From Zeus faber (lineage: Eukaryota > Chordata > Actinopteri > Zeiformes > Zeidae): a DNA stretch of 64,000 bases. Shown piece by piece: positions 30,596-32,256 of this stretch. Every line of letters starts with the position of its first letter. Position 1 is the first letter of the stretch. A model generated the notes under the pieces. That model had not been told where the DNA came from and ran no database searches. It saw only the letters and a program-made list of their open reading frames with translations. The stretch lies in contig OY482866.1 of assembly GCA_960531495.1 (NCBI GenBank), forward strand, positions 10,664,689-10,728,688. Reading direction: 5' to 3'. A program made the position numbers and the translations under genes.

Positions 30596-32132
30596 CAGGC
30601 AGGCAGGCAGGCAGGCAGGCAGGCAGGCAGGCAGGCAGGCAGGCAGGCAGGCAGGCAGGCAGGCAGGCAGGCAGGCAGGCAGGCAGGCAGGCAGGCAGGC
30701 AGGCAGGCAGGCAGGCAGGCAGGCAGGCAGGCAGGCAGGCAGGCAGGCAGGCAGGCAGGCAGGCAGGCAGGCAGGCAGGCAGGCAGGCAGGCAGGCAGGC
30801 AGGCAGGCAGGCAGGCAGGCAGGCAGGCAGGCAGGCAGGCAGGCAGGCAGGCAGGCAGGCAGGCAGGCAGGCAGGCAGGCAGGCAGGCAGGCAGGCAGGC
30901 AGGCAGGCAGGCAGGCAGGCAGGCAGGCAGGCAGGCAGGCAGGCAGGCAGGCAGGCAGGCAGGCAGGCAGGCAGGCAGGCAGGCAGGCAGGCAGGCAGGC
31001 AGGCAGGCAGGCAGGCAGGCAGGCAGGCAGGCAGGCAGGCAGGCAGGCAGGCAGGCAGGCAGGCAGGCAGGCAGGCAGGCAGGCAGGCAGGCAGGCAGGC
31101 AGGCAGGCAGGCAGGCAGGCAGGCAGGCAGGCAGGCAGGCAGGCAGGCAGGCAGGCAGGCAGGCAGGCAGGCAGGCAGGCAGGCAGGCAGGCAGGCAGGC
31201 AGGCAGGCAGGCAGGCAGGCAGGCAGGCAGGCAGGCAGGCAGGCAGGCAGGCAGGCAGGCAGGCAGGCAGGCAGGCAGGCAGGCAGGCAGGCAGGCAGGC
31301 AGGCAGGCAGGCAGGCAGGCAGGCAGGCAGGCAGGCAGGCAGGCAGGCAGGCAGGCAGGCAGGCAGGCAGGCAGGCAGGCAGGCAGGCAGGCAGGCAGGC
31401 AGGCAGGCAGGCAGGCAGGCAGGCAGGCAGGCAGGCAGGCAGGCAGGCAGGCAGGCAGGCAGGCAGGCAGGCAGGCAGGCAGGCAGGCAGGCAGGCAGGC
31501 AGGCAGGCAGGCAGGCAGGCAGGCAGGCAGGCAGGCAGGCAGGCAGGCAGGCAGGCAGGCAGGCAGGCAGGCAGGCAGGCAGGCAGGCAGGCAGGCAGGC
31601 AGGCAGGCAGGCAGGCAGGCAGGCAGGCAGGCAGGCAGGCAGGCAGGCAGGCAGGCAGGCAGGCAGGCAGGCAGGCAGGCAGGCAGGCAGGCAGGCAGGC
31701 AGGCAGGCAGGCAGGCAGGCAGGCAGGCAGGCAGGCAGGCAGGCAGGCAGGCAGGCAGGCAGGCAGGCAGGCAGGCAGGCAGGCAGGCAGGCAGGCAGGC
31801 AGGCAGGCAGGCAGGCAGGCAGGCAGGCAGGCAGGCAGGCAGGCAGGCAGGCAGGCAGGCAGGCAGGCAGGCAGGCAGGCAGGCAGGCAGGCAGGCAGGC
31901 AGGCAGGCAGGCAGGCAGGCAGGCAGGCAGGCAGGCAGGCAGGCAGGCAGGCAGGCAGGCAGGCAGGCAGGCAGGCAGGCAGGCAGGCAGGCAGGCAGGC
32001 AGGCAGGCAGGCAGGCAGGCAGGCAGGCAGGCAGGCAGGCAGGCAGGCAGGCAGGCAGGCAGGCAGGCAGGCAGGCAGGCAGGCAGGCAGGCAGGCAGGC
32101 AGGCAGGCAGGCAGGCAGGCAGGCAGGCAGGC
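30596..32132. repeat. (CAGG)384 perfect tetranucleotide array
   Basis: 1537 bp of CAGG (CCTG on the minus strand) without a single interruption visible. It is followed after GCGCG by a long CA tract. All long open frames across it (Arg-Gln-Ala-Gly or Leu-Pro-Ala-Cys repeats) are artefacts. The minus strand is the sense strand of the pc exon at 39849-40011, so the transcript would carry CCUG repeats if the intron spans this site. Confidence 0.98.
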
Positions 32133-32135
32133 GCG

Positions 32136-32256
32136 CACACACACACACACACACACACACACACACACACACACACACACACACACACACACACACACAC
32201 ACACACACACACACACAGACACACACACACACACACACACACACACACACACACAC
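32136..32256. repeat. (CA)n microsatellite abutting the CAGG array
   Basis: About 60 CA units with one CAGA interruption at 32216-32219. On the minus strand this reads (TG)n with one TCTG, immediately upstream of the (CCTG)n array. Confidence 0.98.

Follow-up and report, generated by a model that had tools for sequence, protein, structure and literature searches.

We identified an uninterrupted array of 384 CCTG units on the sense strand of the pyruvate carboxylase gene (pc) of Zeus faber. The array most probably (at roughly 75%) represents a compound microsatellite, (TG)n-CGCG-(CCTG)384, that expanded recently, is tolerated within a long pc intron and is spliced out with it. The stretch of DNA analysed here (hereafter the window) comprises 64,000 nucleotides (G000:C22:10664689-10728688) of a genome of 803,497,848 bases (803.5 Mb) assembled into 153 contigs.

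Window positions 30596-32131 read (CAGG)384 on the + strand, i.e., (CCTG)384 on the minus strand, free of errors. A period-4 run covers positions 30596-32132 (1537 bp, 384.25 copies) with 100% matches and 0% indels, in agreement with the 384 uninterrupted units counted in an earlier note on this DNA. On the + strand, the array is followed by a CGCG junction (32132-32135, without strand assignment) and then by (CA)41 G (AC)19 (32136-32256), which amounts to 60 CA units split by one G and corresponds to the approximately 60 CA units with one CAGA reported earlier. The junction had previously been given as GCGCG; it is actually CGCG, as the first G is the last G of the array. Read along the minus strand, a TG tract containing a single TCTG comes first, followed by CGCG and (CCTG)384. 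The lone CAGA (TCTG on the minus strand) does not mark the CCTG junction but falls within the CA/TG tract, about 40 nt short of that tract's outer end. Chance can be excluded for the array, since the longest period-4 run per simulation was 10-16 bp when the window was simulated 20 times under a first-order Markov model.

A 163-bp pc exon with intact AG and GT splice sites, which corresponds to human PC residues 342-395, can be found at window positions 40011-39849 on the minus strand. Using a query extended by one residue past each edge of this exon, the best solved-structure match of its translation was 7wta chain A (Pyruvate carboxylase, mitochondrial; residues 342-396, E 1.4e-28), and the Pfam domain Biotin_carb_C matched below the cut-off only. 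We examined the 100 kb flanking each side of the window for additional pc exons, using human PC as the tblastn query. The 13 matches obtained (E up to 1) are all on the minus strand and are ordered from residue 1 to residue 535. The preceding exon occurs at C22:10741903-10741748 and the following exon begins at C22:10655855, 8.8 kb outside the window start. Between the window's exon and the following one lies a 48,681-bp intron (GT...AG, 0 N; G000:C22:10655856-10704536), of which window positions 1-39848 (minus strand) form the in-window part. The array occupies sense positions 7718-9253 of this intron, with the donor 7.7 kb away and the acceptor 39,428 bases (39.4 kb) away. The window yielded no further pc exon. 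Outside the known exon, the best tblastn match had an E-value of 0.78, and in a scan for hidden pc exons the best 20-residue score was 40, with 870 shuffled peptides scoring as high as 46.

Gene structure therefore supports an intronic position of the array in pc and CCTG as its sense-strand motif. The earlier note had proposed such a position from an exon 7.7 kb away with the minus strand as sense; both points are borne out by the exon's donor and by the ordered minus-strand pc exons that flank the array on both sides. The same note would have counted a pc exon between 32.3 and 39.8 kb against this placement; none was found there, and the following exon lies past the window start. A 35-residue piece of the following exon has its sole genome match at the pc locus; as far as this exon-piece search can tell, pc may therefore exist in a single copy. 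The pc introns are very long in this region (approximately 22, 37, 48.7 and 88 kb within G000:C22:10566988-10779038), and the eight pc matches that precede the long introns are packed into about 15 kb. Long TG or CA tracts start no more than about 20 nt from the exon end in three of the four pc exons inspected (G000:C22:10741748, 10655664 and 10567856), where they might influence splicing.

Across the whole genome, a 48-unit CAGG pattern gave 337 forward and 0 reverse placements. This number equals 384 minus 47, with all placements coming from the pc-intron array, which is the sole pure CAGG array of at least 48 units in 803.5 Mb. A 20-unit pattern gave 366 forward and 25 reverse placements, 365 of them from the pc-intron array. 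Among the matches listed, the CAGG arrays of at least 20 units comprise 384, 35, 24, 23 and 20 units, such that the pc-intron array is about 11 times as long as the runner-up. At 8 units, 670 forward and 364 reverse placements were obtained, the pc-intron array accounting for 377 of the 670. We used CAGA, GATA and the backward motif GGAC as tetranucleotide yardsticks. CAGA forms seven arrays of at least 48 units, the longest having 68. The 48-unit GATA pattern gave 206 and 125 placements, and any single GATA array can therefore have at most 253 units. For GGAC, the 48-unit pattern gave 0 placements and the 20-unit pattern gave 1 and 7.

Perfect purity over 1.5 kb is unusual for an array, and the length given here is taken from a single assembly in which the other CAGG arrays have no more than 35 units (among the matches listed). 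These observations could potentially be attributed to an assembly artefact, in which case the true array would be shorter, longer or interrupted and 384 units a consensus guess. We consider this unlikely: both the window and the intron contain 0 N, and the small number of contigs (153) resembles that of long-read assemblies. The left 1-kb flank of the array has one genome match, and the right 1-kb flank has six short matches in addition to one of full length, in a search that ignores simple repeats and scores the best candidates only. Since these flanks anchor the array to one place in the genome, it is not a misplaced array, although its purity over 1.5 kb may partly reflect assembly or polishing.

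Within this genome, the array appears to be the extreme case of an otherwise ordinary class of repeats. We searched the genome for (CAGG)3-N4-(CA)6 and for the reverse order, merging by hand placements that were 4 bases apart, and obtained 54 placements at 44 loci and 15 placements at 14 loci, respectively, with two loci counted in both sets. The preference for the first order (44 of 58 loci) corresponds to a two-sided binomial probability of 1.0e-4. By hand count, the junctions at the 44 CAGG-CA loci were direct at 16, CGCA at 11, CACG at 11 and CGCG at three (including the pc-intron array), with CAGA, CATG and TACA at one each; a CpG-bearing junction was thus present in 25 of the 44. We also inspected the sequence around 26 other CAGG arrays that have 8 or more units (23 distinct places on contigs C1 and C2 among the matches listed, and three from the 20-unit search). 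A CA tract of at least 10 nt was found no more than 150 nt away, 3′ of CAGG in eight of these arrays and 5′ of it in two, one array having both. Tracts of CAGA, GAGA or GGAA border several others of the 26, and some have no tract of this kind next to them. A CGCA tract, whose motif frequently forms the junction of CAGG and CA at other loci of this genome, is also found at window positions 37989-38105 (29.2 copies, 97% matches).

In a control with the backward motif, (GGAC)3-N4-(AC)6 gave 48 placements and (AC)6-N4-(GGAC)3 gave five. A polarity specific to CAGG is accordingly not supported, as GGAC-AC compounds are polar too. (GGAC)n located 5′ of (AC)n constitutes a second polar class of compound microsatellites, observed genome-wide.

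We compared the flanks of 27 distinct loci with the CAGG-CA order (26 and the window), of which 22 belong to the 44; locus L044 was left out, L057 is the same as L034, and the flank of L068 was included in part only. No long flank common to the 27 compared loci was found, only short weak matches. These include a match between the window's left flank and L064 (78.6% over 56 nt, E 4.7e-5) and matches over 30-108 nt in four more locus pairs, which we judged to be simple sequence. A transposon origin was rejected on the basis of the near-unique flanks of the array and this lack of a long common flank. Because the order recurs without common flanks, CAGG-CA compounds, which have a preferred order, seem to arise repeatedly next to CA tracts. 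The same evidence bears on whether the array is a functional pc element, such as a structural pause or an element controlling splicing rate, that is kept by selection. The sense orientation of CCTG, the very long intron and the one copy found of the exon piece are compatible with such a role, which we nonetheless regard as highly improbable: perfect purity fits a recent expansion, and similar compounds are scattered without common flanks among those compared.

To look for a gene nested around the array, ten chosen open reading frames of the window, none over the array itself, were compared with Pfam. Four had no match, and the others had matches below the cut-off only (DDE_3 twice, ALKBH8_N, DUF7869, Furin-like, and Biotin_carb_C on the pc exon). 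The two DDE_3 transposase remnants (38320-38955, + strand; 57976-58461, minus strand) are presumably Tc1/mariner-like. A UnaL2 LINE 3′ element was found at 50193-50246 (70.3 bits), directly preceded by a probably spurious tRNA-Pyl call at 50047-50124, and a 28-bp minisatellite of 5.7 copies occurs at 22689-22847.

Of the 988 YGCY words in the pc intron, 383 fall within the array, at approximately 249 per kb versus 13 per kb elsewhere; YGCY is the motif of MBNL proteins. A 234-nt CCUG stretch was predicted to form one long hairpin (-53.9 kcal/mol, z -2.84), with three of 200 shuffles folding equally well or better, and a 234-nt CAGG stretch reached -111.9 kcal/mol (z -18.17). In these predictions, the folding of CCUG is weak but regular, and that of CAGG is strong. 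Together with the intronic location and the CCUG sense orientation indicated by gene structure, the YGCY content and the CCUG hairpin raise the possibility of an action like that in human myotonic dystrophy type 2 (DM2), whereby CCUG RNA from the pc intron would form hairpins, bind MBNL, and form nuclear foci or slow intron removal, with a cost or a regulatory effect in carriers. Such an action appears quite unlikely to us, since the array is present in the genome of a presumably viable animal, spliced introns are normally short-lived, and pc is probably expressed mostly outside muscle. On the other side, 384 units are within the range of human expanded alleles (PMC9462847) and, as the earlier note had pointed out, above the human disease threshold of about 75 units; DM phenotypes are, moreover, modelled by zebrafish mbnl mutants (PMC8246264).

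Two ATG-started frames are predicted across the array. One encodes 576 aa, mainly QAGR repeats, antisense to pc (30587-32317, + strand), and the other encodes 681 aa, with VC and then LPAC repeats, in the pc sense direction (30256-32301, minus strand). The repeat contains 0 stops in all six frames, and such frames are therefore expected and are not evidence of translation.

Under the preferred reading of a tolerated microsatellite expansion, the starting point would have been an ordinary CA-linked CAGG tract of this genome, which replication slippage or recombination would have lengthened to its present size. The expansion is likely to have been recent because the array is pure. The array would be copied into pc pre-mRNA as CCUG, which would normally be removed with the intron and be harmless. 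Pure human CCTG tracts of more than about 30 units are unstable and change between generations (PMC8432210), so the array would be expected to be polymorphic and unstable between individuals. Harmless removal is not assured, since intronic (CCTG)100 in sense orientation left more unspliced transcript than CAGG in yeast, for which impaired splicing has been proposed (PMC10849350). Intron retention is discussed in the same study and in a review (PMC6651174).

If the length holds in living animals, the array would be a pure CCTG tract that occurs naturally, reaches the length seen in human disease and lies outside CNBP in a defined intron. It would then be possible to examine whether the length of CCUG is toxic by itself, or whether the host gene, the tissue and the rate of splicing are decisive. 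A bolder and rather doubtful proposal is that of a natural, heritable CCTG expansion of DM2 length tolerated in an intron of possibly the only pc gene, its CCUG being rendered harmless by rapid splicing and a low dose, or titrating MBNL, or yielding LPAC/QAGR peptides. If this were true, DM2 resistance or mild disease would have a natural model in this animal. The order bias of CAGG-CA compounds (44 versus 14 loci) additionally offers a way to study the birth of CCTG beside TG, as in the human DM2 repeat.

Long tetranucleotide arrays have been described in other fish. In a survey of fish genomes, 4-nt microsatellites of more than 300 iterations occurred in five of 14 genomes (Danio, Cynoglossus, Nothobranchius, Astyanax and Cyprinus; PMC8186053), so the length alone of the pc-intron array is not unheard of. 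The array shares with these microsatellites its 4-nt period and more than 300 iterations. In the main text of that paper, AGGC is mentioned twice, both times within longer motifs, and CCTG is absent. We found no report of a CCTG expansion in a fish among the titles and abstract beginnings of the open-licence papers that our literature searches listed. Compared with the CAGG-CA class of its own genome, the pc-intron array matches in motif, order and CpG-bearing junction, and falls outside the class in length (384 units versus 35 for the runner-up among the matches listed).

The human DM2 repeat in intron 1 of CNBP (ZNF9) has the configuration (TG)n(TCTG)n(CCTG)n, is usually interrupted in normal alleles, and goes back to an inserted AluSx and its tail (PMC3378579; PMC9462847). 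The pc-intron array resembles it in being intronic, with CCTG on the sense strand, a TG tract upstream and more than 75 uninterrupted units; its length and purity are like those of human expanded DM2 alleles. It differs in that the host gene is pc rather than CNBP, that no TCTG block separates TG from CCTG, and that no dispersed element such as Alu was found at the array flanks in the 1-kb flank search. The DM2-like order claimed in the earlier note consequently holds in that TG precedes CCTG on the sense strand, but not in the TCTG block, which is missing, the junction being CGCG. The same order at 44 loci, with no long flank common to the 22 of them that were compared, points to a local habit of compound microsatellites and not to kinship with DM2. 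The likeness to DM2 thus looks like convergent syntax.
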